This document shows positions 34,736-58,639 of a stretch of DNA of 64,000 nucleotides, piece after piece. A program made the position numbers and the translations under genes. Numbering within the stretch: the first letter of the stretch is position 1; every line of letters starts with the position of its first letter. The notes under the pieces are model-generated. The model was given only the letters and a program-made list of their open reading frames with translations. It did no database searches and was not told the origin of the DNA. Source of the stretch: Isoetes taiwanensis (Eukaryota; Streptophyta; Lycopodiopsida; Isoetales; Isoetaceae); NCBI GenBank assembly GCA_021234155.1, contig JAJEKV010000003.1, positions 24,586,874 through 24,650,873 on the forward strand, in the 5' to 3' direction.

Positions 34736-34899
34736 GATGGAATCCGGACCCGGCAGCGGCGGCGGTGTTTGGGGTCTGGGTTCGGGAACTCTGGAAGACA
34801 GCCCTCTGTGAGGACCGATGGATCCTACTTGGGGGAAGTCGGGGGACTATGTCACTTGCAGGATTTGCAAGAGAAGAAGAAAGAAAGAAAAGCAGAACA

Positions 34900-35377
34900 A
34901 ATGAGAGGAAAATGATAAGCTTCCTTGATATCAATGATGAACATACATGAGCTCGCAATAGAGAAAAAGCGAAAGGAGACAAGACTCAAAACTCATCTAG
35001 CCATCATATGCTAGCTCTACTCATATATATAGTACAATGGCCTTGGGCCCAATATGAACACTCTGGTGATCACCGGTCTTGAGCTCACGGAAGGCCGATT
35101 CTTGAGAATGTTGGCGGTGCCTCTTTAAATGCCTAGAATCTTGGCCTGGCCCGACACGAGGCGGTGGCAGGTCATCACTTATCTGAGCGGCGCCTCTTGT
35201 TGTGGGCCTTGAGGCTTTGGCTGCGTGGTCAACTGCTTAGTCTTCTGCTGAGCCTTTGATGGCTGACAGGTGTCTTGAGCCTTTGATGGCTGACCCGTGG
35301 TGGCCCGAGGATCCTTGAGCTTGACACAGTGCATGCGTATGCATGAATAGTCTGTGCCGGGAGGCGCGGGACTAACA
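34900..35377 (-). repeat. Gypsy 5' LTR, candidate
   Basis: On the minus strand the segment begins TGTTAGTCCCGCG at 35,377, carries a TATA-like CTATATATATGA near 35,021-35,031, and passes into the gag leader. Its U3 part has a 19-base direct repeat (TGAGCCTTTGATGGCTGAC at 35,249 and 35,276). The inner end could not be fixed because no convincing primer-binding site or second LTR was found, so 34,900 is approximate. Confidence 0.45.
35023..35031 (-). promoter_or_regulatory. TATA-like box in the gypsy LTR candidate
   Basis: CTATATATATGA on the minus strand lies about 350 bases inside the proposed LTR start and upstream of gag, where a retrotransposon pol II promoter is expected. Confidence 0.4.
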
Positions 35378-35382
35378 CCCCT

Positions 35383-37313
35383 ATAACCCTGGCGCCGTGG
35401 ACCACTCCCGTGCTATGACTCCGTATCAGTCCATCCCTTCTTAAAAAGAGATCGCCCGCGATCGTCCGAGTACGTTCCAGTTTGGTCCATCCCTTCTCAA
35501 GGTGATAGTCCCATGTTCAACGTGCACTGGAAGTTCCTAGACCTGCGAACTCAAGAATGGTTATATAAGTTATTGTACTTCCACGATTACCTTATACCTA
35601 TTGGAACCTCCCGTCCCCATTCTTTTAGATCCACGCAAAACTCTAAAAGCGATTATGGATATCGCATACTTCCATGATCGATATATCCTTGTACCTCAGC
35701 GGTGCATTATTATCTTTCATTACCTCGCGGTACTACTTGATTGTACCCCACGATCTGATATCTCCGCGATACCAATCCACCATGGGTACACACAAGAAAT
35801 AAAATTCTTATTCTCTATTAAGGTATAAAGAAAGTCAACTTACAAACTTTACCCATAAGTACGTTCCATAGGAAATAATTTGAGATTCGCATCAAATTTT
35901 AGCATCCATGTCCTTGACATCTTGTCAGTAAAGTAAAGTGTCTTCCCCAATGCTTACTTCCCAATGCTTAACACTAAGCAAACACGCAAACAAGGTCAAG
36001 TGTTAGTATGACTTCCAAAGTCAAATATGTATACCCAGCCGGTAGGCCTTCCGGATCACCGCGATCGACTCACGCAAGCAAGCAAAAGCGGCTTTTATTT
36101 ATTCCACAACCCCCAAAGGATTATAGAAATTTCCCCAATACCCGAACTCATTCTCAACAAATTAGTCCCATGCGGCGAGCATTCTCCGCGAAAGCAAGAG
36201 CTTTCTGCGCTCTTGATGCTCGGCTTCACTTGTTGCGGCGATCCTAAATCCTCCTTACTTGGACTCCCGTTCCAAGGATTAAGCCAAGATTCGCCAGTTC
36301 ACTCATATACTTGGCTCCCAACACACCTTTTTGGCGAAGTTCAACCCAAGCTGTACTTGCAACACAAACTTGCAAGATTTTTGGTGTGTCGTGACCTTAG
36401 AGTATAATAACACCACTAGTTCCATCTTCTTTGATTCAAATCCAAAGCGAGAAATTCAAATTCGGTGATGTTTCCATAGCCTATAGATTCCTACAAGAAT
36501 CGCCAAACTTCGCTCGATACCACTTGATACGATTCATTGTTTATTGGAAATTAAGCGCTGAACAACGACATCTTATTTGAGGAATAAGATCCAAAAGAGC
36601 GTCATATATATCCGGACAAATACATTGATGAGCACGTTTAACCACCCAGCAAGGGTCCACAAGGTTATGGCAATCATCGGCAAGCTGGCTCGACCAAGCG
36701 GTATCTAGCTACTCGGCGTAGACCATGAGCAAACAATATCGGCTACTCGCGTAGACCATGAGCAAAGACTCAATCCATAGCTACTCCCGTAGACCACGGA
36801 TCGAGAAAATAATTGCAAATCTGCTTGAGTCATTTGTAGCGGTTATTTGTGACCCCATGTCATCTTTTCGGCCATTACTCCCTCATACGGATGAACTAGG
36901 ATATGTGCCGCCTCAATTCGGAAACTAGACTCGAGGCGGTTCCAACAAGGTAAAGGTCACCTCAATTGGAGCTCTGGTTGTGGAGATATATCCAAGCTGA
37001 AGTTTAGGTTCTATTTATAGATCTCTGCGACTTTAGCCTTTTTAGCAGACGGTTGCCTTTTTCCTCAAAATATCTCCTTGCCTTTAATTAGATTATATGA
37101 CTTATCATATGGATATTATCTATGGCCTTTTTGTGCAAAATAGTGCGCGCCTTTTTTTGGCGATCATTGATTCCCCTTGATATCTCTCAACCAATGGTTT
37201 CGACCCCATCCTAGATATCACAACCTTGCCATAGTTCTACAACTTTGCCATATTTTGCCATGCCCCATAACCCTGGCGCCATGGACCACTCCCTCGTGCT
37301 ATGACTCCGTATC
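35383..37313 (-). mobile_element. Non-autonomous TGATACG LTR element, copy 1 (left LTR truncated)
   Basis: The right LTR spans 36,525-37,313 (789 bp). It starts TGATACG and ends CGTATC(A), a perfect terminal inverted repeat if the missing A is allowed. Just left of it is a minus-strand primer-binding site. The internal region of about 1.1 kb has no coding domain. Only the last ~46 bases of the left LTR (35,383-35,428) remain, where the gypsy element abuts. The element is read right to left and needs proteins from another element. PBS and size suit a copia-type non-autonomous element. Confidence 0.75.
36512..36522 (-). promoter_or_regulatory. Minus-strand primer-binding site, copy 1 (altered)
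   Basis: GCTCGATACCA on the plus strand equals the reverse of TGGTATC(A)GAGC, the site that pairs with the 3' end of initiator tRNA-Met. One base of CTG is missing compared with the intact version at 50,687-50,698. It lies two bases from the LTR. Confidence 0.75.
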
Positions 37314-38901
37314 GAATATGGGATTATTAAGTAAATGTAAGCTGTTATTTTTCGACCTCTCCACCTGCTTCTTTGTGTTGCCACGTGGCTCTAATTCTTT
37401 TAGGGAATGTTTTTTTTTTTTTTACCACACATTCTCGTTTTTTACCTCACCTTCTAAACTTTTTACCTAACATTCTAAATTTCACCTTACATTCTAAACT
37501 TTTTACCTAGCATTCAAAATTTCACCTTACATTCTTAGTGAAATCAATCAAAAACAAGTTATCACACGAAATTCTGATAAAAACCTTCATTTCATTGATA
37601 CAAAGAGTTACAAGCAGTCTTGAGACCAACACTAGATCACACAAGTTAAAGAGGTCCATAGATCAGAAAATCATCATTAGATAAAAAAAAGCAGAACAAA
37701 GGCTGTAAAATGGTCCATTTGATCAAAAAATGGGTTCAACTCCAAACCTAACTCTTCATCATATTCTGTATGAAAATCCTAAAACTTGCCAAGAAGCGGG
37801 GAAAACTTCATAAAAAGCTCGAAAAACTCAAAAATGGCTGGCGCCGTTCGAACGCCATAGCCATGGCCTGACACCGTTCATAATGGAAGAGAAAGAAAAT
37901 GAATTGCGTCAATTTTTTTTTCAATAAAGATTTCCCACGTCATCTCAAGTGGATGGCGTGTCGGAAAATAATGACTTAACATTCCGTTACAAGAATGGCC
38001 CCACGGCCTAAATTTCGATGGGGTCAACATTGCCTCAGCGTATTTATTTAGCGTCGGCAAATGTTTCCCTACAGAATTTTAGGCGTGGGGCCATTCTTAT
38101 ATACAAAAATCATTCAAGCTTACAATTCCGTTTTAAGAGCGAAATGCGTCATTATCCGAGCTTTTGTAGGAAACAAAAGCGGCTCAAGGACTCCATTATC
38201 CATGGCGACATGGCTATGGCCACAACATGAAAGTCAAATGACTCATTTTTGCCTTGCGTTGAAACAGCGGGGAACTATTTCATCATGCGTCCGCGGCGAC
38301 TATTGAGTCCCAAAATGGTTATGGTTGAAGTTGTTTCTGCTGAATGGAAGGTCCACCTAACGCGATGATCGCGGTATTTGGGAAATCTCGGGTAAAAATT
38401 GTAGTTTTTATTTAAATGACATTTGGATCGGTGAGCTCGATAGTGATTTTGCCTCTGTAGGAATTTTCGTCCATGTGAGTCCTACATATGGTGGAATAGG
38501 GATTTCGCCTTGGGAAGAATGGCTCTGGCGTTCAAGCACATGCGGTTTAAAACCCTTGGTTCCCTAAAATAAATAAATAGAGAATATTCAAAAATTTCCA
38601 TCAAATTATATGCTAGGTAGCGCCATTGATCGACATGTTTGTGGCATTCAATTGCAATTTAAGTGACATCTATATGACATGGTTTTATTGTCTATGTGCT
38701 ACTAAGTGGCATACGTTGTGACATCAAGTGTGTTTGAAATGACATGTATTCTACATGTATGTGTGGTGTTCCACGGCTCAAAGCGCCATTCATTTGACAT
38801 GCTCAAATGCCATTCATATGATATATACCGTGATGTGTATATGTGTTGGTTGGCGGAGGTTGTACCATTTAAGTGCATGTGTATGATAATCGTGATATTT
38901 T
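37314..38901. repeat. Segment G, copy 1 of the 7-kb unit
   Basis: This segment lies between the TGATACG element and the copia insertion. It contains a T-run, the TTTTTACCTAACATTCTAA-type repeats (37,440-37,530), and a 24-bp inverted repeat (37,991-38,014 with ~38,075-38,098) that is perfect in copy 2. It lacks about 215 bases found in copies 2 and 3: the sequence jumps at about 37,826 between two CTC-AAAA words. No gene is recognised. It ends in the copia target duplication ATTTT (38,897-38,901). Confidence 0.8.
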
Positions 38902-39610
38902 TGTTAGAAATGTGATATTGAGTTCATTGCATAATTAGAATAAGTGTTGAGAATTGGCGAAGTATCGACTATTAATTATCTGACGGGGAACCATTGAAAC
39001 ATATCTGATCGAGGAAGATATGAGTTATGAAAGTGCGAGGTTGATTCATGTTCATGCACTCCTTGGTATATGGTTGAAGTTGGATCTAGGTTCCATATTG
39101 ACCTAGGTTTATATGGTTAAGGTTAAGAGAAAGGTTAATGGTTTAAGACCATTATATTATATTGAAGCAGAGACCATTGAGACCATTGAATTATAATGGT
39201 CATTGTTTATAAGCATGTAAATATGAGATAAGATCGAAGACTAGGCGGCAAGGTGGCAAATTTAGAAAATTGTTAAGCGGACGAATCGGCTGACCCTAAA
39301 CATTTGTGAAGAACACGATAAAGATGAATCATTCCTGTAAAAGTAAATATATAGATACGGACATTGATTTGATCTCTCATGGAAATTGAATGAAGAAAGA
39401 TGTTTTGATGATTGCATTGCTTTCGATTGTACAAAGGCCTTTGCTTCTGATAATATATTCAATACCATTGCTCTGATGGTTTGTCTAAGATTATTTTCAA
39501 AGGTTCATGTTGATTGTTAAAGCTAGAAATTGCATTGCAAGTCATTAAGGTTGTTTATGTGATTGCTCTATTGTGGATTTACAAGGATCAAAGCAAGTAA
39601 ACTCTAATAT

Positions 39611-39623
39611 CACGGTATCGAGC
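39611..39623 (+). promoter_or_regulatory. Copia primer-binding site, copy 1 (altered)
   Basis: CACGGTATCGAGC stands one base after the 5' LTR, where copy 2 has CTGGTATCAGAGC, the initiator tRNA-Met site. The two differ exactly at CTG and CAG. As written this site would prime poorly. A base-calling artefact is the likelier explanation. Confidence 0.8.
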
Positions 39624-39959
39624 TTGGTTGTTTGTGGTTGCGGAATGTCTAGCGAGGTTTGGATGAGTTTGTTGGCGGTGTTGATGTGTAGAAGGGAGGT
39701 CTAGGCTTTCAAGTGCGGAAGGATGCCATAACTCATATTCTAGAGGTGGAAGACCTGCGGGGTTTGGTGGATCTGGTAATGTGTCATTGACAAACACCAT
39801 TGTCGGGACAAGTGCAAGGAAGGCGGACTACGAAGGATCATCTATAAATCCACGAAAATGCAGGTGCCAGCGGTGAAGTGAACTCTAGGGCGTCTGTTGA
39901 AGGAGGAACAAGTGCCAAAAGCTGAAAAAGCGAGTATGCAAGGATTAAAAAGCTCAAGG

Positions 39960-40160
39960 GATAATAACCTCAAAGGTAAGTCCCACTATAAGGTTGAAGT
40001 TAAGAAATAAATCTCGAAAGGAAATGTGGATCTATTTTCTTAAGCATTTTGAGGGAAAACGTTCTCACAAATTGACTTGTTGGATAAAGAACTTAGAAAA
40101 CTCAAAATACAAGAAGATGAAGATATTTCGAGTTTTTTACGAGGTTCGATAATATTGTGG
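39960..40160 (+). pseudogene. Copia gag fragment, copy 1
   Basis: The sequence corresponds to the open frame described in copy 2 (47,185-47,382) but is broken by indels (for example near 40,140). It encodes a KKMKI-S-FFTRFDNIVADLG type segment as found in copia gag (UBN2 region). Confidence 0.55.
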
Positions 40161-40239
40161 CTGATTTGGGAGGAGGCTGGGTGGATCTACGAGAAAGGTA
40201 CCAAGTTTTGACTATTGTTTCATGGTTGAGAAAGTTTTT

Positions 40240-40433
40240 GGACAAAACACATTGAATTGAACATTCATTTTATCGGGGATCTAGCTTCCAAGAAATATAT
40301 TCAAATGGCGTATGTAAATCTGAGGAGAAACAGGTTGTAGATATATTCACCAAAGGGATTACGGAAAGGAAAATTCTTGCAGTTCGAGAGATGATCTCAA
40401 GGTTTTATAATTATGCAATGAAGGAGGAATGTT
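40240..40433 (+). pseudogene. Copia polyprotein C-terminus (RNase H end), copy 1
   Basis: Starting at KHIELNIHFI (40,247) and, after a frameshift near 40,315, CKSEEKQVVDIFTKGITERK (from 40,318), this is the conserved end of copia polyproteins (TKHID..HFIRD...DIFTK). It finishes ISRFYNYAMKEEC, and the TAG stop falls inside the first bases of the 3' LTR (TGTTAG). Nothing of protease, integrase or RT lies between it and gag. Confidence 0.75.
40418..40429 (+). promoter_or_regulatory. Copia polypurine tract, copy 1
   Basis: ATGAAGGAGGAA lies directly before the 3' LTR start TGTTAG, where plus-strand DNA synthesis is primed. The tract also encodes the last residues of the polyprotein. Confidence 0.75.
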
Positions 40434-41131
40434 AGAAATGTGATATTGAGTTCATTGCATAATTAGAATAAGTGTTGAGAATTGGCGAAAGTATCGACTA
40501 TTAATTATACTGGGGAACCATTGAAACATATCTGATCGGAAGATATGAGTTATGAAAGTGCGGGGTTGATTCATGCTCATGCACTCCTTGGTATATGGTT
40601 GAAGTTGGATCTAGGTTACATATTGACCTAGGTTTATATGGTTAAGGTTAAAGAAAGGTTAATGGTTTAAGACCATTATATTATATTGAACGAGACCATT
40701 GAGACCATTGAATTATAATGGTCATTGTTTATAAGCATGTAAATATGAGATAAGATCGAAGACTAGGCGACAAGGTGGCAAATTTAGAAAAGCGTTAAGC
40801 GTAGAATAAATGACCCTAAACGTCGTGAAGAACACGATAAAGATGAATCATTCCTGTAAAATAACTATATAGATACGGCATTGATTTGATCTCTCATGGA
40901 GGAAATTGAATGAAGAAAGATATTTTATGATTGCATTGCTATAGTGTACAAAGACCTTTGCTTTCTGATAATATATTGATACCATTGCTACTGATGGTTT
41001 GTCTAAGATTATTTTCAAAGGTTCATGTTAATTGTTAAAGCTAGAAATTGCATTGCAAGTCATTAAGGTTGTTTATGTGATTGCTCTATTATTGTGGATT
41101 TATAAGGATCAAAGCAAAGTAAACTCTAATA

Positions 41132-41662
41132 ATTTTTATATGTCATTGCCATAAACCAATGAGAGTACTTTCGGAAGGCTAGCATTGCCTTTGTAAGTTA
41201 TGGCATGGACTTATCTTGCCCCATTTTGAATTTGAGGCCTCTGCTACTACCAAAAAGAGATTTAGAATGAGCTTAGAAGATGCAAAAACAAAGAGATGTT
41301 GAAAGCAAAGAGATCACGCAAATTTAAAGGGATGCAAAAAGCGGGGGATTTGCAAGTTGAAGCTTCGGTAATAATAGATGGTTCTTTGCAAATCTGCGAA
41401 AAGAGGTGAGTTGTAAAATATTACCTAAGAGTTTCAAAGCCCTTTACTGCGGCTCTGTTATATGAAGAAACATTGAATCATGCAAAAGGCTGCATCGATG
41501 CTCACGAGCGGACTAGAAGATCTTCAAATGCAAGATTTAATCGGCATCAAGGCCCTGTTTTGCACGGCATTTGAGACCCTCGGCTCAGCGGCTAGCAACA
41601 ACAAGCGCATTTCGGACTCACGGCTCCCTCGGATCACATCGAGGAAATGCGGCCGGAAGGAA
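41132..41662 (+). repeat. Segment F, copy 1 of the 7-kb unit
   Basis: This segment runs from the copia target duplication to the next TGATACG element. It carries reading frames described in copy 2. Here they are more broken, and the longest is 41,480-41,683 (MQKAASML, LEDLQMQDLIGIKALFCTAF). The junction with the LTR (GGCCGGAAGGAATCATTG) is the same as in copy 2. Confidence 0.7.
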
Positions 41663-44311
41663 TCATTGTTTATTGGAAATTAAGCGGTGAACAAGCGACA
41701 TCTTATTTGAGGAACAAGATCCAAGAAGCGTCATATATATCACGGACAAATACATTGATGACGCGTTTAACCACCCAAGCGGGTCCACAAGGTTATGGCA
41801 ATCATCGGCAAGCGGCTCGGCAAGCGGTATCTAGCTACTCAGCGTAGGCGATGAGCAAACAATATCGGCTACTCGCGTAGACCATGAGCAAAGACTCAAT
41901 CCATAGCTACTCCCGTAGACCCGCGGATGGAAAATAATTGCAAATCTGCCGAGTCATTTGTAGCGGTGATTTGTAACCCCTTGTCACCTTTTCAACCATT
42001 ACTCCCTCATACGGATGAACTAGGATATGTGCCCCAATTCGGAAACTAGACTCAGAGCGGTTCAACAAGGTAAAGGTAAGCCTCAATTGGAGCTCACGGT
42101 TGTGGAATCGTCAAGCGAAGTTCGGGTTCTATTTATAGATCTCTGCGACTTTAGCCTTTTTAGCATCTGATTGCCTTTTTCCTCAAAATATCTCCTTGCC
42201 TTTAATTAGATTATATGACTTATCATATGGATATTATCTATGGCCTTTTTGTGCAAAATAGTCGCCCTTTTGCGTGATCATTGATTCCCCTTGATATCTC
42301 TCAACCAATGGTTCTCGACCCCATCCTAGATATCACAACCTTGCCATAGTTCCACAACTTTGCCATATTTTGCCATGCCCCATAACCACGGCGCCGTGGA
42401 CCACTCCCGTGCTATGACTCGTGTCGGTCCATCCCTTCTTAAAAGAGATGCGCGATGATCGTCAGAATCGTTCGGTTTGGTCCATCCCTTCTCAAGGTGA
42501 TAGTCCCATGTTCAGCGTGCACACTGGAAGTTCCTAGACCTGCGAACTCAAGAATGGTTATATAAATTATTGTACTTCCACGATTACCTTATACCTATTG
42601 GAACCTCCGTCCCCATTCTTTTAGATCCTGCAAAACTCTAAGCGGTTATGGATATCCGCGTACTTCCAGCGATCGATATATCCTTGTACCTCCGTGGTGC
42701 ATTATTATCTTTTATTACCTCCAGCGGTACTACTTGATTGTACCCGCGATCACGGTATCTCCCGCGATACCAATCCACCATGGGTACACACAAGAAATAA
42801 AATTCTTATTCTCTATTAGGTATAAAGAAAGTCAACTTACAAACTTTACCCCATAAGTACATTTCCATAGGAAATAATTTGAGATTCGCATCCAAATTTT
42901 AGCATCCATGTCCTTGACATCTTGTAAAGTAAAGTGTCTTCCCCAATGCTTACTTCCCAATGCTTAACACTAAGCAAACTGCAAACAAGGTCAAGTGTTA
43001 GTATGACTTCCAAAGTCAAATATGTATACCACGACCCGGTAGGCCTCCGGATCCCGCGATCGACTACGCAAACCAAGCAAAAGCGGCTTTTATTTATTCC
43101 ACAACCCCCAAAGGATTATAGAAATTTCCCCAATAACCCGAACTCATTCTCAACAAATTAGTCCCATGCGGCTTGAGCATTCTCCGCGAAAGCAGGAGCT
43201 TTCTCTGCGCTTCTTGATGCTCGGCTTCACTTGTTGCGGTGATCACAAATCCTCCTTACTTGGACTCCCGTTCCAAGGATTAGCCCAAGATTCGCCCGGT
43301 TCACTCATATACTTGGCTCCCAACACACCTTTTGGCGAAGTTCAACCCAGCTGTACTTGCAACACAAACTTGCAAGATTTTTTTGGTGTCGCGACCTTAG
43401 AGTATAATAACACCACTAGTTCCATCTTCTTTGATTCAAATCCAAAGCGAGAAATTCAAATTCGGTGATGTTTCCATAGCCTATAGATTCCTACAAGAAT
43501 CGCAAACTTCGCTTCGATACCACTTGATCACGATTCATTGTTTATTGGAAATTAAACGCTGAACAACGACATCTTATTTGAGGAATAAGATCCAAGAGCG
43601 TCATATATATCACAGACAAATACATTGATGAGCACGTTTAACCACCCAGCCAGGGTCCACAAGGTTATGGCAATCATCTGGCAACTGGCTCAGCAAACAG
43701 TATCTAGCTACTCTGCGTAGACCATGAGCAAACAATATCTGGCTACTCGCGTAGACCATGGTAAAGACTCAATCCATAGCTACTCCACGTAGACCACGGT
43801 CGAAGAAAATAATTGCAAATCTGCCGGACTTCATTTGTAGCAGTTATTTGTGACCCCATGTCATCTTTTCGGCCATTACTCCCTCATACAGATGAACTAG
43901 GATATGTGCCGCCTCAATTCGGAAACTAGACTCAGGCGGTTCCAACAAGGTAAAGGTCACCTCAATTGGAGCTCGGTTGTGGAGATATATCCAACTGAAG
44001 TTTAGGTTCTATTTATAGATCTCTGCGACTTTAGCCTTTTTATGAGGCGGTTGCCTTTTTCCTCAAAATATCTCCTTGCCTTTAATTAGATTATATGACT
44101 TATCATATGGATATTATCTATGGCCTTTTTGTGCAAAATAGTGCGCCCCTTTTAGCGCGATCATTGATTCCCCTTGATATCTCTCAACCAATGGTTTCGA
44201 CCCCATCCTAGATATCACAACCTTGCCATAGTTCTACAACTTTGCCATATTTTGCCATGCCCCATAACCACGGGCCATGGACCACTCCCTCGTGCTATGA
44301 CTCAGAGTATC
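41663..44311 (-). mobile_element. Non-autonomous TGATACG LTR element, copy 2
   Basis: The left (3') LTR is 41,663-42,425, lacking about 11 bases of its outer end. The right (5') LTR is 43,525-44,311. The altered primer-binding site GCTTCGATACCA lies at 43,511-43,522. On the minus strand the left LTR is preceded by AAGAAGGGATGGAC, a fair polypurine tract. The internal 1.1 kb is non-coding and matches copies 1 and 3. Confidence 0.8.
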
Positions 44312-46098
44312 GAATATGGGATTATTCGTAAATGTAAAGGCTGTTATTTTTTCGACCTCTCCACCCTTTGTTGTGTTGCCGCGTGGCTCTAATTCTTTTA
44401 GGGAATGTTTTTTTTTTTTTTTTTACCCACATTCTCAGTTTTTTACCTCACCTTCTAAACTTTTTACCTAACATTCTAAATTTCACCTTACATTCTAAAC
44501 TTTTTACCTAGCATTCAAAATTTCACCTTACATTCTTAGTGAAATCAATCAAAAACAAGTTATCACTTGAAATTCTGATAAAACCTTCATTTCATGGATA
44601 CAAGAGTTACAGCGGTCTTGCGGACCAACACTAGATCACACAAGTTAAAAGAGGTCCATAGATCGAGAAAATCATCATTAGATAAAAAAGCAGAACAAAA
44701 GGCTGTAAAATGGTGTTGATCAAAAATGGGTTCAACTCCAAACCTAACTCTTCATCATATTACGTATGAAATCCCTAAAACTTGCCAAAAGGAGGAAAAC
44801 TTCATAAAAAAGCTCGAAAAACCTCGAACTTCGTTAAAGCGTAGAACTTCGGCAACAACCTCGAAACTTCGACAAAGGCATGTAGCCACACACCGGTACA
44901 TGGCGAGATTTATCAAATGCAAGAAAATCTAACAAAAACATAAAATGGATCGATGATCATCTCCATAACACCCTAGCACCTACAAAATTCATGTAAGCGC
45001 CATCAAAAACGTTTCAAAATGCCTGGTAGCCCTCAAAAATGGCTGGCCGGATTCGAGCCATAGCCATGGCGACACCGTTCGAGAATGGAAGAGAAAAAAA
45101 AATGGTCCGTCATTTTTTTTTTCAATAAAGATTTCCCGTCATCTCAAGTGGATGGCGTGTCGGGAAGAATAATGACTTAACATTCACGTTACAAGAATGG
45201 CCCCACGGCCTAAATTTCGTGGGGTCAACATTAAGCCTCCGTTATTTGCCGTAGCGTCGGCAAATGTTTCCCCCAATTTAGGCCGTGGGGCCATTCTTAT
45301 ATAAAAAAATCATTCAAGCTTACAATTCCGTTTAAAGCGAAATCGTCATTATTGAGCTTTTGTAGGAAACAAAGCGCTCAAGGACTCCATTATCCATGGC
45401 GACATGGCTATGGCCACAACATGAAAGTCAAATGACTCATTTTTGCCTTGCGTTGAAACAAGCGAGGGAACTATTTCATCATGCCATCCGCGGCATTTTG
45501 TTGGTCCCAAAATGGTTATGGTTGAAGTTGTTTTCTTTGAATGGAAGGTCCACCTAAGCGATGATGCAGTTTTGGGAAATCTCGGGTAAAATTTGCGGTT
45601 TTTATTTAAATGGCCTGTTGGGTCGGTGAGCTTCGGTAGTGATTTTGCCTCTGTAGGAATTTTTAGTCCATGTGAGTCCTACATATGGTGGAATAGGGAT
45701 TTCCGCCTTAGGAAGAATGGCTCTGGCGTTCAAAGTCATGCGGTTTAAAACCCTTGGTTCCCTAAAATAAATAAATAGAGAATATTCCAAAAATTTCCAT
45801 CAAATTATATGCTAGGTAACGCCATTGATCGACATGTTTGTGGCATTCAATTGCAATTTAAGTGACATCTATATGACATGGTTTTATTGTCTATGTGCTA
45901 CTAAGTGGCATACGTTGTGACATCAAGTGTGTTTGAAATGACATGTATTCTACATGTATGTGTGGTGTTCCGGCTCAAAGCGCCATTCATTTGACATGCT
46001 CAAATGCCATTCATATGATATATACCGTGATGTGTATATGTGTTGGTTGGCGGAGGTTGTACCATTTAAGTGCATGTGTATGATAATCGTGATATTTT
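44312..46098. repeat. Segment G, copy 2 of the 7-kb unit
   Basis: This is the fullest version of segment G. It includes a stretch rich in AACTTCG and CCTCGAA words (44,815-45,045) that is deleted in copy 1, and the perfect 24-bp inverted repeat annotated separately. Recurrent GACAT words (CATTTGACATGC, ACATGTATTCTACATG) mark 45,830-46,020. A 62-codon minus ORF (45,602-45,790) has no known domain. Confidence 0.8.
45193..45298. repeat. 24-bp perfect inverted repeat (foldback, ~106 bp)
   Basis: The arm at 45,193-45,216 (AAGAATGGCCCCACGGCC then TAAATT) is the exact reverse complement of 45,275-45,298, with 58 bases between. Copies 1 (37,991-38,098) and 3 (52,368-52,474) have a damaged right arm. 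A foldback or MITE-like insertion is plausible, but no target duplication was identified. Confidence 0.8.
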
Positions 46099-46797
46099 TG
46101 TTAGAAATGTGATATTGAGTTCATTGCATAATTAGAATAAGTGTTGAGAATTGAAGCGAGAATTATCGACTATTAATTATCTGGGGAACCATTGAAACAT
46201 ATCTGATCGAGAAGATATGAGTTATGAAAGTGCGAGGTTGATTCATGTTCATGCACTCCTTGGTATATGGTTGAAGTTGGATCTAGGTTCCATATTGACC
46301 TAGGTTTATATGGTTAAGGTTAAGAGAAAGGTTAATGGTTTAAGACCATTATATTATATTGAACCGAGACCATTGAATTATAATGGTCATTGTTTATAAG
46401 CATGTAAATAACAGATAAGATCGAAGACTAGACGGCAAGGTGGCAAATTTAGAAAATTATTAAGCGGACGAATCGGCGACCCTAAACCTTTTGTGAAGAA
46501 CACGATAAAGATGAATCATTCCTGTAAAATAACTATATAGATACCACGACATTCGATTTGATCTCTCATGGAAATTGAATGAAGAAAGATGTTTTGATGA
46601 TTGCATTGCTACAGTGTACAAAGGCCTTTGCTACAGTAATATATTCAATACCATTGCTACAGTGGTTTGTCTAAAATTATTTTCAAAGGTTCATGTTGAT
46701 TGTTAAAGCTAGAAATTGCATTGCAAATCATTAAGGTTGTTTATGTGATTGCTCTATTGTGGATTTATAAGGATCAAAGCAAGTAAACTCTAATATC

Positions 46798-46809
46798 TGG
46801 TATCAGAGC
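46798..46809 (+). promoter_or_regulatory. Copia primer-binding site, copy 2 (intact)
   Basis: TGGTATCAGAGC, two bases after the 5' LTR, is the canonical plant copia site complementary to the 3' end of initiator tRNA-Met. Confidence 0.9.
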
Positions 46810-47184
46810 TTGGTTGTTTGTGGTTGCGAGAATGTCTAGCGAGGTTTGGATCGAGTTTGTTGGCGGTGTTGATGTGTAGAAGGGAGGTCCGGGCTTTCAA
46901 GTGCGGAAGGATGCCATAACTCATATTCTAGAGGTGGAAGACCTGCAGGATTTAGTGGATCTGGTAATGTGTCATTGACAAACACCATTGTCGGGACAAG
47001 TGCAAGGCGGAACTCGACGAAGGATCATCTATAAATCACGAAAATCACGAGGTGCGACACTGGTGAAGTGAACTCTAGAGGCGTCTGTTGAAGGAGGAAC
47101 AAGTGCCAAAGCTGAAAAAGCTGGTATGCAAGGATTAAAAAAGCTCAAGGGATAATAACCTCAAAGGTAAGTCCCACTATAAGG

Positions 47185-47382
47185 TTGAAGTTAAGAAATA
47201 AATCTCGAAAGGAAATGTGGATCTATTTTCTTAAGCATTTTGAGGAAAAGCGTTCTCACAAATTGACTTGTTGGATAAAGAACTTAGAAAACTCAAAATA
47301 CAAGAAGATGAAGATATTTCGAGTTTTTAACGGGTTCGATAATATTGTGGCTGATTTGGGAGGGGCTGGAGTGGATCTATGA
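47185..47382 (+). pseudogene. Copia gag fragment, copy 2
   Basis: This 65-codon open frame reads EMWIYFLKHFE, then HKLTCWIKNLENSKYKKMKI and FNGFDNIVADLGGAGV. It corresponds to the central UBN2/gag region of copia polyproteins, in which a charged helix is followed by a FxxxFDxIVxxL motif. The start is not the original one: upstream sequence (46,830-47,160) is a frame-broken N-terminal part. The frame ends where pol has been deleted. Confidence 0.6.
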
Positions 47383-47419
47383 GAAAGGTACCAAGTTTTG
47401 ACTATTGTTTCATGGTTGA

Positions 47420-47620
47420 GAAGGTTTTTGGACAAAACACATTGAATTGAACATTCATTTTATCGGGGATCTAGCTTCAAGGAATATATTCAAATGGTAT
47501 GTAAATACGAGGGAAACGGGTTGTAGATATATTCACCAAGGGATTACGAGGAAGGAAAATTCTTGCGATTCGAGAGAGATGATCTCAAGGTTTTATAATT
47601 ATGCAATGAAGGAGGAATGT
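47420..47620 (+). pseudogene. Copia polyprotein C-terminus, copy 2
   Basis: The sequence encodes THIELNIHFIGDL-type residues and later DIFTKG and YNYAMKEEC, equivalent to copy 1, but two indels break the frame. The stop codon again comes from the LTR start. Confidence 0.65.
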
Positions 47621-48330
47621 TAGAAATGTGATATTGAGTTCATTGCATAATTAGAATAAGTGTTGAGAATTGGCAGAAGTATCGACTATTAATTATCACC
47701 GGGGAACCATTGAAACATATCTGATCGGAAGATATGAGTTATGAAAGTGCGAGGTTGATTCATGCTCATGCACTCCTTGGTATATGGTTGAAGTTGGATC
47801 TAGGTTACATATTGACCTAGGTTTATATGGTTAAGGTTAAAGAAAGGTTAATGGTTTAAGACCATTATATTATATTGAAGCAAGAGACCATTGAGACCAT
47901 TGAATTATAATGGTCATTGTTTATAAGCATGTAAATATGAGATAAGATCGAAGACTAGCGGCAAGGTGGCAAATTTAGAAAAGCTGTTAAGCGGTAGAAT
48001 CGGCCGACCCTAAGCCGTCGTGAAGAACACGATAAAGATGAATCATTCCTGTAAAATAACTATATAGATACACGACATTGATTTGATCTCTCATGGAGAA
48101 ATTGAATGAAGAAAAAGATATTTTATGATTGCATTGCTATAGTGTACAAAGACCTTTACTTTCTGATAATATATTGATACCATTACTTCTGATGGTTTGT
48201 CTAAGATTATTTTCAAAGGTTCATGTTAATTGTTAAAGCTAGAAATTGCATTGCAAGTCATTAAGGTTGTTTATGTGATTGCTCTATTGTGGATTTATAA
48301 GGATCAAAGCAAGTAAACTCTAATAATTTT

Positions 48331-48852
48331 TTTATATGTCATTGCCATAAACCAATGAGAGTACTTTCGAAGGCTAGCATTGCCTTTGTAAGTTATGGCA
48401 TGGACTTATCTTGCCCATTTTGAATTTGAGGCCTCTGCTACTACCAAAAAGAGATTTAGAATGAGCTTAGAAGATCTGCAAAAACAAGAGATGTTGAAAG
48501 CAAAGAGATCTGCAAATTTAAAGGGATCTGCAAAAGCGGGGATTTGCAAGTTGAAGCCGATAATAATAGATGGTTCTTTGCAAATCTGCGAAGAAAAGGT
48601 GAGTTGTAAAATATTACCTAAGGTTTCAAAGCCCTTTACTCGGCTCTGTTATATGAAGAAACATTGAATCATGCAAAAGGCTGCATCGATGCTCTGAGCG
48701 GACTAGAAGATCTTCAAATGCAAGATTTAATCGGCATCAAGGCCCTGTTTTGCACGGCATTTGAGACCCTCGGCTCCAGCGGCTAGCAACAACAAACGCA
48801 TTTCAGACTCCTGGCTCCCTCAGATCACATCAGGAAATGCTGGCGGAAGGAA
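48331..48852 (+). repeat. Segment F, copy 2, with 90-codon ORF
   Basis: A clean open frame at 48,395-48,667 (90 codons, MAWTYLAHFEFEASATTKKR...YMKKH) is lysine-rich. It is present in copy 1 only with frameshifts. A second frame follows (LEDLQMQDLIGIKALFCTAF). The family is not recognised. It might be host gene sequence predating the transposon insertions. Open frames on either side of the copia insertion are not continuous. Confidence 0.5.
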
Positions 48853-51490
48853 TCATTGTTTATTGGACATCTTATTTGAGGAACAAGATCCAAGAACGTC
48901 ATATATATCACAGACAAATACATTGATGAGCACGTTTAACCACCCAACTGGGTCCACAAGGTTATGGCAATCATCGGCGGCTGGCTCGACAAACATTATC
49001 TAGCTACTCGCGTAGACCATGAGCAAACAATATCGGCTACTCGCGTAGACCATGAGCAAAGACTCAATCCATAGCTACTCCACGTAGACCACAGATCAGA
49101 AAATAATTGCAAATCTGCAGAGTCGCTGTAGCAGTGATTTGTGACCCCTTGTCACCTTTTCAACCATTACTCCCTCATACAAATGAACTAGGATATGTGC
49201 CACCCCAATTCGGAAACTAGACTCCGAGTCGGTTCCAACAAGGTAAAGGTTGCCTCAATTGGAGCTCTGGTTGTGGAGATACGTCCAACTGAAGTTCAGG
49301 TTCTATTTATAGATCTCTCTGCGACTTTAGCCTTTTTTAGCATACAATTGCCTTTTTCCTCAAAATATCTCCTTGCCTTTAATTAGATTATATGACTTAT
49401 CATATGGATATTATCTATGGCCTTTTTGTGCAAAATAGTCTGCCCCTTTTGCGTGATCATTGATTCCCCTTGATATCTCTCCAACCAATGGTTCTCGACC
49501 CCATCCTAGATATCACAACCTTGCCATAGTTCCACAACTTTGCCATATTTTGCCATGCCCCATAACCCTGGCGCCGTGGACCACTCCCCCGTGCTATGAC
49601 TCCGTATCGGTCCATCCCTTCTTAAAAGAGATGCGCGCGATCGTCAGAATCACGTTCGGTTTGGTCCATCCCTTCTCAAGGTGATAGTCCCATGTTAAGC
49701 GTGCACACAAGTTCTAGACCCTGCGAACTCAAGAATGGTTATATAAGTTATTGTACTTCCACGGTACCTTATACCTATTGGAACCTCCGTCCCCATTCTT
49801 TTAGATCCTGCAAAACTCTAAAGCGGTTATGGATATCGGCGTACTTCCCGCGATGCGATATATCCTTATTACCTCCATGATTGCATTATTATCTTCGTAC
49901 CTCAGCGGTACTACTTGATTGTACTCCACGATCTGGTATCTCCCGATACCAATCCACCATGGGTACACACAAGAAATAAAATTCTTATTCTCTATTACGT
50001 ATAAAGAAAGTCAACTTACAAACTTTACCCATAAATTACATTTCCATAGGAAATAATTTGAGATTCGCATCAAATTTTAGCATCCATGTCCTTGGCGACT
50101 TGTCAGTAAAGTGTCTTCCCCAATGCTTACTTCCCAATGCTTAACACTAAGCAAACGCAAACAAGGTCAAGTGTTAGTATGACTTTCAAAGTCAAATATG
50201 TATACCGACCCGGTAGGCCTTTGGATCCTGCGATCGACTCTCACGCAAACCAAGCAAAGCGGCTTTTTATTTATTCCACAACCCCCAAAGGATTATAGAA
50301 ATTTCCCCAATAACCGAACTCATTCTCAACAAAGTCGGTCCCATGCAGCCAGAGCATTCTCCGCGAAAGCAAGAGCTTTCTGCGCTCTTGATGCTCGGCT
50401 TCACTTGTTGCGGCGGTCACAAATCCTCCTTACTTGGACTCCACGTTCCAAGGATTAAGCCAAGATTAGCCCAGTTCACTCATATACTTGGCTCCCAACA
50501 CACCGTTTTGTGAAGTTCAACAAGCTGTACTTGCAACACAAACTTGCAAGATTTTTGGTGTGTCGTAGCCTTAGAGTATAATAACACCACTAGTTCCATC
50601 TTCTTTGATTCAAATCCAAAGCAGAAATTCAAAGTCTCGGTGATGTTTCCATAGCCTATAGATTCCTAAAAGAATCGCAAACTTCCGCTCTGATACCACT
50701 TGATACGATTCATTGTTTATTGGAAATTAAACAGCTGAACAACGACATCTTATTTGAGGAATAAGATCCAAGAACGTCATATATATCACAGACAAATACA
50801 TTGATGAGCACGTTTAACCACCCAATCGGGTCCACAAGGTTATTGCAATCATCTGGCAACTGGCTCAGCAAACAGTATCTAGCTACTCTGCGTAGACCAT
50901 GAGCAAACAATATCTGGCTACTCCGCGTAGACCATGAGCAAAGACTCAATCCATAGCTACTCCCGTAGACCACGGATAAGAAAATAATTGCAAATCTGCG
51001 AGTCATTGTAGCGATTATTTGTGACCCCATGTCACCTTTTTCGGCCATTACTCCCTCATACAGATGAACTAGGATATGTGCCACCTTAATTCGGAAACTA
51101 GACTCAGAAGGCGGTTCCAACAAGGTAAAGGTCACCTCAATTGGAGCTCTGTTTGTGGAGATATGTCAAGCTGAAGTTTAGGTTCTATTTATAGATCTCT
51201 CTTGCGACTTTAGCCTTTTTTAGCGGGCGGTTGCCTTTTCCTCAAAATATCTCCTTGCCTTTAATTAGATTATATGACTTATCATATGGATATTATCTAT
51301 GGCCTTTTTGTGCAAAATAGTCTGCCCCTTTTGTGCAATCATTGATTCCCCTTGATATCTCTCCAACCAATGGTTCTCGACCCCATCCTAGATATCACAA
51401 CCTTGCCATAGTTCTACAACTTTGCCATATTTTGCCATGCCCCATAACCCTGGCGCCGTGGACCACTCCCTCGTGCTATGACTCCGTGTC
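48853..51490 (-). mobile_element. Non-autonomous TGATACG LTR element, copy 3
   Basis: The left LTR is 48,853-49,608, with the same truncated outer junction as copy 2 plus a ~21-bp deletion near 48,867. The right LTR is 50,701-51,490. The internal 1.1 kb is non-coding. This copy keeps the intact primer-binding site and reads CTCTGCG or CAGCAAACAG where copies 1 and 2 read CGGCG or AAGCGG. Confidence 0.8.
50687..50698 (-). promoter_or_regulatory. Minus-strand primer-binding site, copy 3 (intact)
   Basis: GCTCTGATACCA on the plus strand is the exact reverse complement of TGGTATCAGAGC. It lies two bases left of the right LTR, which sets the element's orientation as minus. Confidence 0.9.
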
Positions 51491-52889
51491 GGAATATGGG
51501 ATTATTCGTAAATGTAAGCTGTTATTTTTCGACCTCTCCACCTTTCTTTGTGTTGCCACGTGGCTCTAATTCTTTTAGGGAATGTTTGGCTCAATCGGGT
51601 TTTTTTTTTTTTTTAACCACACATTCTCAGTTTTTTACCTCACCTTCTAAACTTTTTACCTAACATTCTAAATTTCACCTTACATTCTAAACTTTTTACC
51701 TAGCATTCAAAATTTCACCTTACATTCTTAGTGAAATCAATCAAAAACAAGTTATCCTGCGAAATTCTGATAAAACCTTCATTTCATGGATACAAGAGTT
51801 ACAACGGTCTTGAGACCAACACTAGATCACACAAGTTAAAGAGGTCCATAGATCGAGAGAAAATCATCATTAGATAAAAAAAGCAGAACAAAAGGTAAAA
51901 TGGTGGTGATCAAAAATCGGTTCAACTCAAACCTAACTCTTCATCATATTACGTATGAAATCCCTAAAACTTGCCAGAAATGGGAAAACTTCGCAAAAAG
52001 CTCGAAAAACCTCGAACTTCGTTAAAGCGTAGAACTTCGGCAACAACCTCGAAACTTCGACAAAAAGGCATGCAGCCACACCGGTATGGCGAGATTTATC
52101 AAATGCGAGAAAATCTAACAAAAACATAAAATGGATCGATGATCATCTCCATAACACCCTAGCACCTACAAAATTCATGTAAGCGCCATCAAAAACGTTT
52201 CAAAATGCCTCGGTAGCCCTCAAAAATGGCGGCCGTTTTGAGCATATAGCCATGGCGACCGTTCGAGAATGGAAGAAAAAAATGGTCCGTCATTTTTTTT
52301 TCAATAAAATTCCCGTCATCTCAAGTGGATGGCGTGTCCGGAAATGGCGGCTTAACATTCACGTTACAAGAATGGCCCCACGGCCTAAATTTCGTGGGGT
52401 CAACATTAAGCCTCCGTGACTGCCGTAGCGTCGGCAAATGTTTCCCCCCGAATTTGAGGCGTGGGGCCATTCTTATATACAAAAATCATTCAAGCTTACA
52501 ATTCCCGTTTAAGAGCGAAATCGTCATTATTAGAGCTTTTGTAGGAAACAAAGCCGCTCAAGGACTCCATTATCCATGGCGACATGGCTATGGCCACAAC
52601 ATGAAAGTCAAATGACTCATTTTTTGCCTTGCGTTGAAACAACGCAGGGAACTATTTCATCATGCCATCCGCGGCCGCATTTGTTGAGGTCCCAAAATGG
52701 TTATGGTTGAAGTTGTTTCTGAATGGAAGGTACAATTTTTAGATCCATGTGAGTCCTACATATGGTGGAATAGGGATTTCCTTGGGAAGAATGGCTCTGG
52801 CGTTCAAGGCATGCGGTTTAAAACCCTTGGTTCCCTAAAATAAATAAATAGAGAATATTCTAAAATTTCCATCAAATTATATGCTAGGT
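51491..52889. repeat. Segment G, copy 3 (truncated) of the 7-kb unit
   Basis: This follows segment G up to ATGCTAGGT at 52,889, where similarity to copies 1 and 2 stops abruptly. The copia insertion is therefore absent. About 125 bases are missing near 52,730 relative to the other copies. The foldback arms are at 52,368-52,391 and 52,451-52,474. This point is the right edge of the tandem structure. Confidence 0.8.
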
Positions 52890-55510: not shown

Positions 55511-56240
55511 TAATTTTTTCCCTGATTCCGAGCCCCGTTGGCGGAGTTGGTGGGGTGAACCTCGTATGCGCATACCCTTCCCAGCCCACGTCTGGCGCTG
55601 GAGGACCTCTTACCATGGAGTCACAGGAGTTGACGTAGCATCCTGATCAGGGAGAACTACGCCCGGTGTCACAAAGCACAAGAATACCACAAAGAATCAC
55701 AGATGAACATGAGCATGCTAGACCGAACCTAGAAGTCTGACCCCGGAGGTTCCAATAGACATAATCAAATACCAAGACAACAGTGGAACAATGCAAAGAC
55801 TATGACATGGGGTGTTCATTAGAATGTTTACTATACACGTGCCTAGCTCATACTTGCCGATGTTGCCCATACATGTTGAAGCAGCTTATCCAATGATTCT
55901 TACTATGACATCGAAGTAGATCTCATACTCAGCATTTTCACAATACCCACAGCTTGCACTAAGGCAATCCCCCCCTTAAGGAACGCCATATACTCCTATC
56001 AATTTAATCCATTAGCCATACCAAATTAGTTTCCCAATGACAAAAAGATAAGGCCAACACTTCCCCATGACATCACCACATCATTGAAGTCCCCATAAGG
56101 TTCCGATGGTTCCCTTGACCAAATTCATATCAACATCTCTGTATATAATTCCATCCCACATTCCATATTTGCAATAAACCACCTAGCTAAGGATTTTAAT
56201 ATTTCATATTAAAATTCCACTACCTTATAGCTTACAAGAA
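55511..56240. other. No gene seen
   Basis: This is low-copy, CAG/CTG-rich sequence without an ORF of note or a recognised repeat. Confidence 0.4.
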
Positions 56241-56245
56241 ATTTA

Positions 56246-56269
56246 TTGCGGCGGCCAAGGCCGCCGCAA
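56246..56269. repeat. GC-rich palindrome, 11-bp arms
   Basis: TTGCGGCGGCC and GGCCGCCGCAA are perfect inverted copies separated only by AA, inside AT-rich sequence. Tightly paired GCGGCGG/CCGCCGC ends of this kind are known from small non-autonomous DNA transposons in plants, but no element body is defined here. Confidence 0.75.
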
Positions 56270-56285
56270 ACATTTCTCTTCACTT

Positions 56286-56435
56286 GACTCACATATTGGT
56301 TTGAAAATGTGTGGAAAGTTAGAACAATGTTGTGTTCTACCTCCTAGACATTCTCTATGTGACTCACTTATTGGTTTGAAAATGTGTGCAAAGTTAGAAC
56401 AACGTTGTGTTCTACCTTCTAGACATTTTCTCAAA
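56286..56435 (-). repeat. 75-bp tandem duplication in a 97-codon minus ORF
   Basis: Two copies (56,286-56,360 and 56,361-56,435) differ at a few bases. Because 75 is a multiple of 3, the minus ORF 56,243-56,536 stays open and encodes two 25-residue repeats (CLEGRTQRCSNFAHIFKPIS and CLGGRTQHCSNFPHIFKPIC). No family is recognised. Coding status is uncertain. Confidence 0.6.
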
Positions 56436-56539
56436 TTGCACTCTGATGTGAATGTTCTCCGCGACAAACATTTTACATTCACGCAGATTTGGCATCCCAT
56501 AATCAAATCATGAAGCTTATCACATTGTCCAAGCATCCA

Positions 56540-57565
56540 AAATGGTATTATGCCAAATGTTCTAATCGTTGAAAAAAAAAATAGTAAGTTTTAACTATTG
56601 TGCAATTATAAGAACTATAAATTAGAAACTATTATGTAATAGTTATAATATGTAGAAGTGCAACAAATAACTATTACTTCACAATGCATATAAGAATAGT
56701 AAACTAGAAACTTTAGAACATATAGGTGCTGCTTTTCTCAAATTTTGCCATTTGGTCATAACCCTATGCTTAAGCAAGGCGATGGAGTTGCAATTGGAAG
56801 CAAGGCCATGAAGGCGCAATCGTGGAAGTGGACTACATTAAATGCATCAAACCCCTGAGCCATCTAATATCGTCCAAATAAGACAGAGTTTGATTGTTGG
56901 GCTGATGAGATCTTAGGTAAGATTTTGAAAATGTTAGTCTATACGTGCACTTCATCTAAACCCTATGGTGCACAACAATGGATTGGAGGTATGCCTTGTG
57001 CCTTGATGAAGTTTAATCATCATATTGTTGAGCTTAAAATGTACAATTTTTATGTTTGTGGTTAACCTTGCTTCAGCAAGCAAGACACACAAAGGAAGAG
57101 GCACAACGACTCTCTTCCACTGAACTGAAGACCAATCCATCTTCTTTTCATCCATATTTTGGGTTCTGTTATTGCTGGAAATGCGCTTCGGACCTTCTGC
57201 TTTTGTAGATTGCATGGACACAAGCAACACACAAAAATGCTTGAAACTTCCAATCTTCCAACATGCATTTGTCACAACTATTCTTTAGAAAACGTCCATT
57301 AAATGAAGTGTCATAAAATAACTAAAAACAGTAGAAAAGCACCTTATTTGTATAAATACATTTGTTCAGCACCTGCAATTCTTAGAAAACCATTTGCAAA
57401 GAGATATCCAAGTTAAACAAATATGTTCAATACCATTTAAAAAATCATAACCCAAACATGTTTAATATGCAACATAGATATGCCATGGAATTATTTGGTG
57501 CAGCGGACCTTGCCCTCTATAAAAAACAAAAGAAGACAGAATATGAACATGAGAAAATTTGCCCC
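56540..57565. other. No gene assigned
   Basis: AT-rich sequence. A 107-codon minus ORF (56,952-57,275) overlaps another minus frame (57,062-57,268). Neither has a recognised domain. Confidence 0.4.
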
Positions 57566-57570
57566 TGAGA

Positions 57571-57735
57571 TAAGATATATAGGACACTACAAAGGCACAT
57601 GATTGGCCTTTTAATCCAATCAATACAATCATTGGCCTTTTAATAAGATATATAGGACACTACAAAGGCACATGATTGGCCTTTTAATCCAATCAATACA
57701 ATCATTGGCCTTTTAATCCAATCAATACAATCTGG
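57571..57735. repeat. 73-bp perfect tandem duplication with 31-bp sub-repeat
   Basis: TAAGATATATAGGACACTAC starts at 57,571 and 57,644 (period 73), and the copies are identical over the unit. Within and after them, ATTGGCCTTTTAATCCAATC recurs at 57,602, 57,675 and 57,706. The tract lies just downstream (on the minus strand) of the kinase pseudogene's stop. Confidence 0.85.
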
Positions 57736-57790
57736 CTGGACAATTAGTGCATGCATATCACTAGACAATATTTTATCAAAGCCACCTTCT

Positions 57791-58630: not shown

Positions 58631-58639
58631 CCTTACCTG

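Follow-up and report, generated by a model that had tools for sequence, protein, structure and literature searches.

A strand-polar, CG-creating change of CHG words in about 57 kb of the Isoetes taiwanensis assembly, very probably a sequencing artefact

In enterobacterial assemblies, nanopore consensus errors gather at the Dcm motif CCAGG/CCTGG; default models perform poorly there, and taxon-trained models nearly remove the errors (PMC6591954). Bacterial outbreak genomes show A/G and C/T ambiguity that depends on the strand and follows the motif RACG/CGTY, at individual positions that number from tens to hundreds in each genome, and the authors report that they found no matching methylation motif in the literature (PMC11610573). 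In telomere repeats, one true word is turned into different wrong words on each strand (PMC9414165). For native plant DNA, a read accuracy of 92-94% was obtained with standard Guppy models, and methylation differences were suggested as a likely cause (PMC9749173). The term CHG has 0 occurrences in the main text of that paper, and we found no breakdown of errors by CHG in it. A literature search found no description of a grammar that turns CHG words into CG words, which is the pattern we describe here.

The window, a 64-kb stretch of contig C1034 (1-based window coordinates are used throughout), holds part of a tandem array whose units measure 7.2 kb; the array has three further, much cleaner units upstream (U1, U2, and U3). 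Self-BLAST and alignment to the upstream units delimit unit A (37827-45031, plus strand) and unit B (45032-52218, plus). To their left lies a partial unit, P (35378-37827, plus; 93.3% identical to unit A by BLAST), and to their right only the start of a further, truncated unit (52219-52731, plus; 86.9% to unit A). P is the right half of a unit (U3/P) that is split by a 39.5-kb LTR insertion with TG...CA ends. The 5′ LTR of this insertion starts left of the window, at C1034:24582754, its 3′ LTR occupies 34766-35377 (plus), and the two are 86.4% alike. Units A and B each carry two short LTR elements, one per strand. The plus-strand elements lie at 38902-41131 in A (LTRs 38902-39609 and 40430-41131, 93.2% alike) and at 46099-48325 in B (46099-46795 and 47618-48325, 91.7%); the minus-strand elements lie at 41660-44303 in A (41660-42420 and 43532-44303, 89.8%) and at 48866-51492 in B (48866-49610 and about 50707-51492, 93.1%). 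Their internal parts measure only ~0.8 to 1.1 kb, and the label copia is that of an earlier note on this DNA. A Pfam scan of 10 window open reading frames gave a single match (RNase H-like, 18.9 bits, below the curated cut-off of 24.8) and none for the two frames taken from units A and B; an Rfam scan of the window returned nothing at gathering scores.

The earlier note had regarded the primer-binding sites (PBS) of these elements as proof of base-calling error. An exact string search finds each of the five readings it quoted once, at the coordinate given for it. The plus-strand elements read CACGGTATCGAGC in unit A (39611-39623) and CTGGTATCAGAGC in unit B (46797-46809). The minus-strand elements read GCTCGATACCA in unit P (36512-36522), GCTTCGATACCA in unit A (43511-43522), and GCTCTGATACCA in unit B (50687-50698). 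The contrasts AACAG/AGCGG and AACG/AGCG that it had also drawn are likewise seen, at 50,870, 36,695, and 41,825. In the plus element of unit B, the LTR match ends at 46,795; the PBS word begins two bases later, at 46,797, and complements the 3′ end of the tRNA-Met genes of this genome, GGCTCTGATA; this is the arrangement of an LTR element primed by initiator tRNA-Met. The PBS alone is insufficient as proof, because initiator tRNA genes in this assembly carry the same change.

Loss at sites where U1 and U2 agree, given for unit A and then for unit B, was 120/157 and 94/157 for CAG/CTG, 38/64 and 28/64 for CCG/CGG, 27/63 and 30/63 for CGC/GCG, and 36/88 and 29/88 for ACG/CGT, but only 11/304 and 12/304 for ATG/CAT. 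This context-specific loss is far beyond chance. The contexts named earlier, CAG, CTG, and ACG, are all affected, and CCG has to be added to them. Changes affected 17-20% of the bases lying at most 3 nt from a CHG or CG site (500/2517 in A, 439/2517 in B), and about 2% of all other bases (85/4528 and 101/4528). The background, U1 against U2 away from such sites, is 1.7% (77/4605). Of the 1363 CHH trinucleotides that lie farther than 3 nt from every CHG and CG, 62 were changed in A and 75 in B; some CHH trinucleotides reach 16-23% in the raw table, probably from overlap with CHG/CG sites. The upstream units are not spotless, which counts against an artefact: U1 and U2 differ at 27 of 184 CAG/CTG sites, and near CHG/CG sites they differ at 5.1% of bases (135/2652). 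In the covered sequence of U3, 11 of 100 CAG/CTG sites are lost.

The changes depend on the strand. At strictly chosen sites, CAG>CGG outnumbers its mirror, CTG>CCG, by 28:0 in unit A and 17:0 in unit B, and CTG>[A/CA/G]CG outnumbers its mirror by 20:0 and 7:0. Counting less strictly, across every BLAST block, gave 103:5, 98:9, and 48:4; mirror changes are thus rare, not absent, a point against the artefact reading. The commonest substitution is A>G (102 in A, 81 in B). A-to-G editing was rejected as a cause, as the CTG changes are not its mirror. At other loci the polarity is plus (L036 and L030), minus (L035), or none (L029 and L038).

Scanning 4-kb bins for depletion of CAG+CTG, excess of CpG, and skew of AGCG to CGCT gave the affected tract edges. 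Besides one region of the contig, the scan covered a few gene loci and 20 PBS loci. The signature spans 54-60 kb (~57 kb): it begins 1-4 kb before the left end of the window and ends near window position 53-56 kb, which corresponds to about 24,583-24,641 kb of C1034, and it is wider than the interval 36512-50930 proposed before. Within the window part of the tract (1-54000), observed/expected ratios are 0.25-0.72 for CAG+CTG and 0.73-1.12 for CpG, and AGCG:CGCT runs from 8:4 to 28:1. Composition is near normal on both sides; the control sequence at 56001-64000 has ratios of 0.91-1.05 for CAG+CTG and 0.41-0.42 for CpG, and lacks the AGCG excess. Transposons and tandem repeats make up most of the tract, and the earlier note had expected the errors in the repeats only. 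Repeat status is ruled out as the boundary by the much cleaner upstream units of the same repeat; the affected entity is the tract. An intact psbA on contig C840, which we take to be unlike land-plant psbA, was dropped as a plastid control, and another sequence is presumably a nuclear copy resembling psbD.

We consider it very probable that the differences between units are sequencing artefacts, from an uncorrected long read of ~57 kb on one strand, most likely from Oxford Nanopore, in which 5-methylcytosine was misread in CHG and partly in CG contexts. These 57 kb of C1034 would derive from what is essentially a single read strand that escaped correction. The base-caller would have misread 5-methylcytosine in the plant CHG words CAG, CTG, and CCG, and partly in CG. 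If its model had met methylcytosine mainly in CG, it might have resolved a methylcytosine signal before AG or TG as a CG-bearing word, with CAG becoming CGG or CG; CTG becoming CACG, ACG, GCG, or CG; and AACG becoming AGCG. Correction of the adjoining part of the contig would explain why the neighboring array units are much cleaner. One exon of a chromomethylase-like gene was found encoded in the genome.

A low-accuracy raw or thinly covered long read, with k-mer confusion by the base-caller and no role for methylation, would also leave a read-sized and strand-polar tract. Telomere miscalls are strand-polar and k-mer-determined, and confuse unlike words with similar current (PMC9414165). However, the losses follow plant methylation contexts, at 60-76% for CAG/CTG, 44-59% for CCG, and 30-48% for CG trinucleotides, and the change farther than 3 nt from CHG/CG hardly exceeds the difference between upstream units, a division that plain low accuracy gives no reason to expect. 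We leave this explanation a small chance.

Real divergence appears very unlikely; in that case the window units would form a branch of the array that is older or evolves faster, under methylation decay, gene conversion, or some other mutational process. Deamination changes C to T or G to A, so that CG is lost and TG and CA are gained, yet at altered CAG/CTG sites the local CG count rose and fell in a ratio of 82:2 among 118 sites in unit A and 59:2 among 92 in unit B. Changes of C-to-T type do occur, with six CTG>TTG in A and seven in B. A copy on contig C946, used as outgroup, agrees with the upstream units at 105 of 117 columns for A and 85 of 90 for B, and with A or B at 6 and 3, which places the changes on A and B. 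Of its 35 CAG/CTG sites, U1 keeps 28, U2 29, A 5, and B 12. A and B have 81 altered CAG/CTG sites in common, and at 36 of these they carry the same allele; this observation favors divergence and counts against an artefact, as shared descent could also have produced it. Nevertheless, we rejected real decay or divergence on context, CG gain, polarity, and outgroup, and identical words change in 5S rRNA and initiator tRNA genes. Together with the cleaner array units and the edges of the composition tract, these results support the earlier judgment of errors rather than evolution.

The same word changes recur at unrelated loci, set by the local word: CAGAG>CGAG and CTGAT>CGAT are common to PBS and tRNA-Met genes, and CAGAA>CGAA occurs in 5S genes. 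Of 70 units in the 5S arrays, 34 have CATCGAAC in place of CATCAGAAC and 27 keep the intact word (70 of 72 units were counted, two having been dropped, and unit ends obtained by extending or joining BLAST pieces are unreliable). Two features of these arrays count against the artefact reading. A frequent change, GTACTGGGA to ATCTT(T)GGGA, brings no gain of CG, so the change grammar is not uniform, and this CTGGG change is of another type. Furthermore, polarity is mixed, with CAG>CGG:CTG>CCG at 9:107 (L015 to L014) and 47:25 (L017 to L014). In the initiator tRNA-Met array, GCTCGATA stands in place of GCTCTGATA in 3 of 15 copies. A PBS search gave 147 matches; since a reversed-pattern control gave 46, part of the list may be chance. 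The median CAG+CTG ratio is 0.72-0.75 around nine CG-type and one CGG-type PBS and 1.09-1.12 around 10 CAG-type PBS (P = 0.013). Exceptions occur in both groups of 10: two CAG-type loci look affected (L038 and L039), and two CG/CGG-type loci look near normal (L035 and L037).

Real co-evolution of variant initiator tRNA-Met genes ending in GCTCGATA with elements carrying matching PBS words (TATCGAGC) could call on the 10 of 100 PBS matches listed that read GGTATCGAGC and on two tRNA copies whose 5′ ATCGAG and 3′ CTCGAT still pair in the acceptor stem, but it is scarcely credible: CAG and CTG face each other in the stem, so the context rule yields paired changes for free, the changed copies are also damaged at other positions, one copy has the 5′ change only and another the 3′ change only, PBS changes are accompanied by surrounding CAG/CTG depletion, and the PBS change in the window adjoins CACGG for CTGG.

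If the differences are artefacts, as we favor, then LTR-divergence dating, counts of repeat subfamilies, 5S and tRNA variants, and frameshift scores in this assembly may partly measure base-calling errors. LTR pairs are 89.8-93.2% alike in the four pairs of A and B and 92.6-97.3% in the five pairs of U1 to U3, ranges that overlap; the U2 pair at only 92.6% counts against an artefact. It is plausible that the transposon frameshifts have the same cause. The context rule can fake covariation, as it makes CG both out of CAG on one stem arm and out of CTG on the opposite arm. A composition scan may locate such tracts without reads. More tentatively, uncorrected tracts might be a written record of CHG methylation, in which a CAG or CTG that reads as CG was methylated on that molecule and a correctly read one was not; we think this rather doubtful. 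If it were true, deposited FASTA files alone would suffice to map the methylation of repeats, strand by strand, and the rule would mimic compensatory pairing in stems as well as tRNA and PBS variants that match each other.

Methylation-induced nanopore errors are already known, and the present tract would be a strong instance of them. As with the Dcm-motif errors, the changes cluster at a C motif, here a presumably methylated one; the plant tract differs in its CHG and CG contexts, in its far denser errors, and in words that turn into CG (PMC6591954). The RACG/CGTY motif of the outbreak genomes is comparable to AACG becoming AGCG here, whereas the plant units are altered at about 10% of letters, with insertions and deletions (PMC11610573). 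The telomere miscalls share the strand-specific wrong words and are explained there by the similar current of repeat words (PMC9414165). Finally, units A and B are 89.6-90.9% identical to U1 and U2, a value close to the accuracy reported for nanopore reads of native plant DNA (PMC9749173).

The window lies at C1034:24586874-24650873 in an assembly of 1.66 Gb and 1110 contigs. It holds the 7.2-kb tandem units A (37827-45031) and B (45032-52218), a partial unit P (35378-37827), and, after B, the beginning of one further unit. Directly upstream are three further units of the same array, U1 to U3; U3 and P are two halves of a single unit, with a 39.5-kb LTR insertion between them whose LTRs are 86.4% alike. 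This insertion contains a G+C-rich tandem array (8043-17639; 8 to 9 copies of a unit of about 1.1 kb, 90 to 91% alike). A purine-rich low-complexity stretch at 6217-7078 has strong strand asymmetry (GC skew 0.28 and AT skew 0.34 in the 6-8 kb bin covering it). Units A and B both contain a pair of short LTR elements in opposite orientations (2.2 and 2.6 kb), whose primer-binding site (PBS) words, if intact, are complementary to initiator tRNA-Met.

An earlier note held that repeat copies differ here through systematic miscalls at CAG, CTG, and ACG, seen at the PBS. Each of the five PBS readings it quoted is exact and unique within the window, and both word contrasts, AACAG/AGCGG and AACG/AGCG, can be seen at the positions it gave. 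U1 to U3 are 96.9 to 97.8% alike, with 24 to 25 CAG+CTG per kb and a CpG observed/expected ratio (o/e) of 0.58 to 0.62; for A, B, and P, the values are 11 to 13 per kb and 0.79 to 0.92. When scoring is restricted to sites shared by U1 and U2, losses in A and B are 120 and 94 of 157 for CAG/CTG, 38 and 28 of 64 for CCG/CGG, and 11 and 12 of 304 for ATG/CAT. Up to 3 nt from a CHG or CG site, 500/2517 bases are changed in A and 439/2517 in B, compared to 85/4528 and 101/4528 elsewhere; U1 and U2 differ at 135/2652 and 77/4605, respectively. Away from these sites, A and B are thus about as near to U1 as U2 is, and their excess divergence is concentrated at CHG and CG. CHH trinucleotides more than 3 nt from such sites are changed at 62 (A) and 75 (B) of 1363. 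Of the 118 altered CAG/CTG sites in A, 82 show a rise in local CG count and 2 a fall; of the 92 in B, 59 show a rise and 2 a fall. Between loci L003 and L004, CAG/CTG-to-CG and reverse changes are balanced (21:18, from overlapping matches that are not independent).

Methylation decay should leave TAG, CAA, or TTG, and TTG was seen 6 times in A and 7 in B; decay was rejected as the cause. Symmetric changes would be the expectation both for real mutation and for a consensus built from reads of both strands. At CAG/CTG sites whose flanks agree, unit A has 28 changes of CAG to CGG and unit B has 17, and the mirror change, CTG to CCG, is absent from both; CTG became ACG, CACG, or GCG 20 and 7 times, again with no mirror in either unit. 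With less strict counting, taking in every BLAST block against the window, mirror changes are present but rare (CAG>CGG:CTG>CCG of 103:5 for L003, 98:9 for L004, and 48:4 for a third locus, L005). To tell which side changed, we used as outgroup L040, a related element from contig C946 (88% to U1 over 1.3 kb aligned). At columns where A departs from a base shared by U1 and U2, this element supports U in 105 of 117 and A in 6; the corresponding figures for B are 85 of 90 and 3 (neighboring columns are not independent in either case). Of its 35 CAG/CTG sites, U1 retains 28, U2 29, A 5, and B 12. The earlier note was right both in its observation and in reading the differences as errors rather than evolution.

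The upstream units show no imbalance between AGCG and CGCT; in the 4-kb bins as far as window 56 kb, the AGCG:CGCT ratio lies between 8:4 and 28:1, and past that point the skew is gone. Its left edge falls between 24,583 and 24,586 kb, and on the right it declines from window 53 to 56 kb (1.5-kb bins), giving a tract of long-read size, 54 to 60 kb. On composition only, CAG+CTG is lowest (o/e 0.25 to 0.36) in two stretches beyond the 7.2-kb array, window 0-8 and 16-28 kb; both belong to the LTR insertion and so do not show that single-copy DNA is affected. Eight 8-kb samples came from within about 220 kb: L025 has the full signature in its first half (CAG+CTG o/e 0.70, CpG o/e 0.88, skew 12:2), L022 is low in CAG+CTG without skew, the second half of L024 has reverse skew (10:21) with CAG+CTG not depleted, and the rest are near normal. 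The signature is also present at 24,664-24,673 kb (L006; o/e 0.67 and 0.79, skew 18:2 and 24:8).

Assembly-wide, GGTATCN{0,3}GAGCTTGG has 147 matches, and the reversed control pattern has 46. Among the 100 matches listed, counted by eye, 84 have CAG, 10 CG, and 6 another form. We compared the 4-kb surroundings of the nine CG forms outside the window, and of the one CGG form, with those of 10 of the 84 CAG forms, taken from the same or neighboring contigs in the list before sequence retrieval. Median CAG+CTG o/e is 0.72 to 0.75 around CG/CGG versus 1.09 to 1.12 around CAG forms (P = 0.013), and median CpG o/e is 0.67 to 0.68 versus 0.46 to 0.51 (P = 0.014). Exceptions are L038 and L039 (CAG form, affected-looking) and L035 (CG form) and L037 (CGG form), both near normal. 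Word skew around PBS loci goes in either direction (23:5 in L032, 2:20 in L033). By pairwise comparison, polarity is plus in L036 (12:2) and L030 (8:1), minus in L035 (0:4), missing in L029 (4:5) and L038 (4:3), and mixed in the 5S loci.

Of 72 units in 5S rRNA arrays (C13 and C907), 9 match the reference exactly; this reference is the form at C13:287343, whose 110-bit score is common to 11 of 47 scored matches. Among 70 usable units, 27 retain CATCAGAAC and 34 have CATCGAAC instead, 32 have GGGCGGAA for GGGCCGGAA, and 17 retain GTACTGGGA; GGATGGGTGA, without CHG/CG contexts, is 96 to 100% intact per base. Since the GTACTGGGA change creates no CG, the rule does not hold uniformly. A 10-kb section of an initiator tRNA-Met array (L054, C534:306001-316000; unit of about 660 bp) has 15 gene copies: 5 identical to the reference, 5 with one or two simple substitutions, and 5 damaged. 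GCTCTGATA became GCTCGATA in 3 copies and ATCAGAG became ATCGAG in 3, the same word changes as at the PBS, and GTGGTGGGCCCATAACCCAC, a stretch lacking both CHG and CG, is preserved in every one of the 15. Two copies are altered at both ends and thereby keep a paired acceptor stem, mimicking a compensatory change. A 21-base piece of this gene has 44 exact assembly matches, many clustered on C971 and C1021 as well. At C152:151927 (L052), the tRNA-Met 5′ part is fused directly to a 5S-rRNA-like piece, a chimera that may be part of a short retroelement; at C1019:18505167-18505393, a 5S-like match and the tRNA piece are on opposite strands with about 100 bases between them.

Other features concern the assembly itself. 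Equal or nearly equal match scores on contig pairs C115/C1090, C926/C1038, C61/C1026, and C277/C1056 suggest that both haplotypes may be present. The 34.6-kb contig C840 (L018) carries an intact psbA, with 27% G+C in the 3.9 kb read; its protein end looks unlike that of land plants, and the contig may thus be algal contamination.

As biology, the tract differences are an artifact; as to cause, we infer methylation and the sequencing platform. Methylcytosine in CHG and CG would have been misread by a long-read base-caller that had probably encountered it mainly in CG, the misread words would have become mostly CG-bearing ones, and the tract would have escaped later correction. A 90-amino-acid exon on C1026 has as its best PDB chains 9mvy, 7ubu, and 4fsx (E values of 2.6e-33 to 2.7e-33), the last of which is the maize chromomethylase ZMET2, with DNMT1 chains as the next-best group (2e-13); judging from these matches, the genome likely encodes a CHG methylating enzyme. 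Such an artifact can mislead estimates of LTR age and create false covariation, and such tracts have a chance of recording methylation. We found no description of this CHG-to-CG grammar in the literature searched, a scope that most subscription journals fall outside. Known relatives are errors at Dcm motifs (PMC6591954), methylation-induced errors in outbreak genomes at RACG/CGTY (PMC11610573), strand-specific miscalls at telomeres (PMC9414165), and the low accuracy with which native plant DNA is read (PMC9749173).
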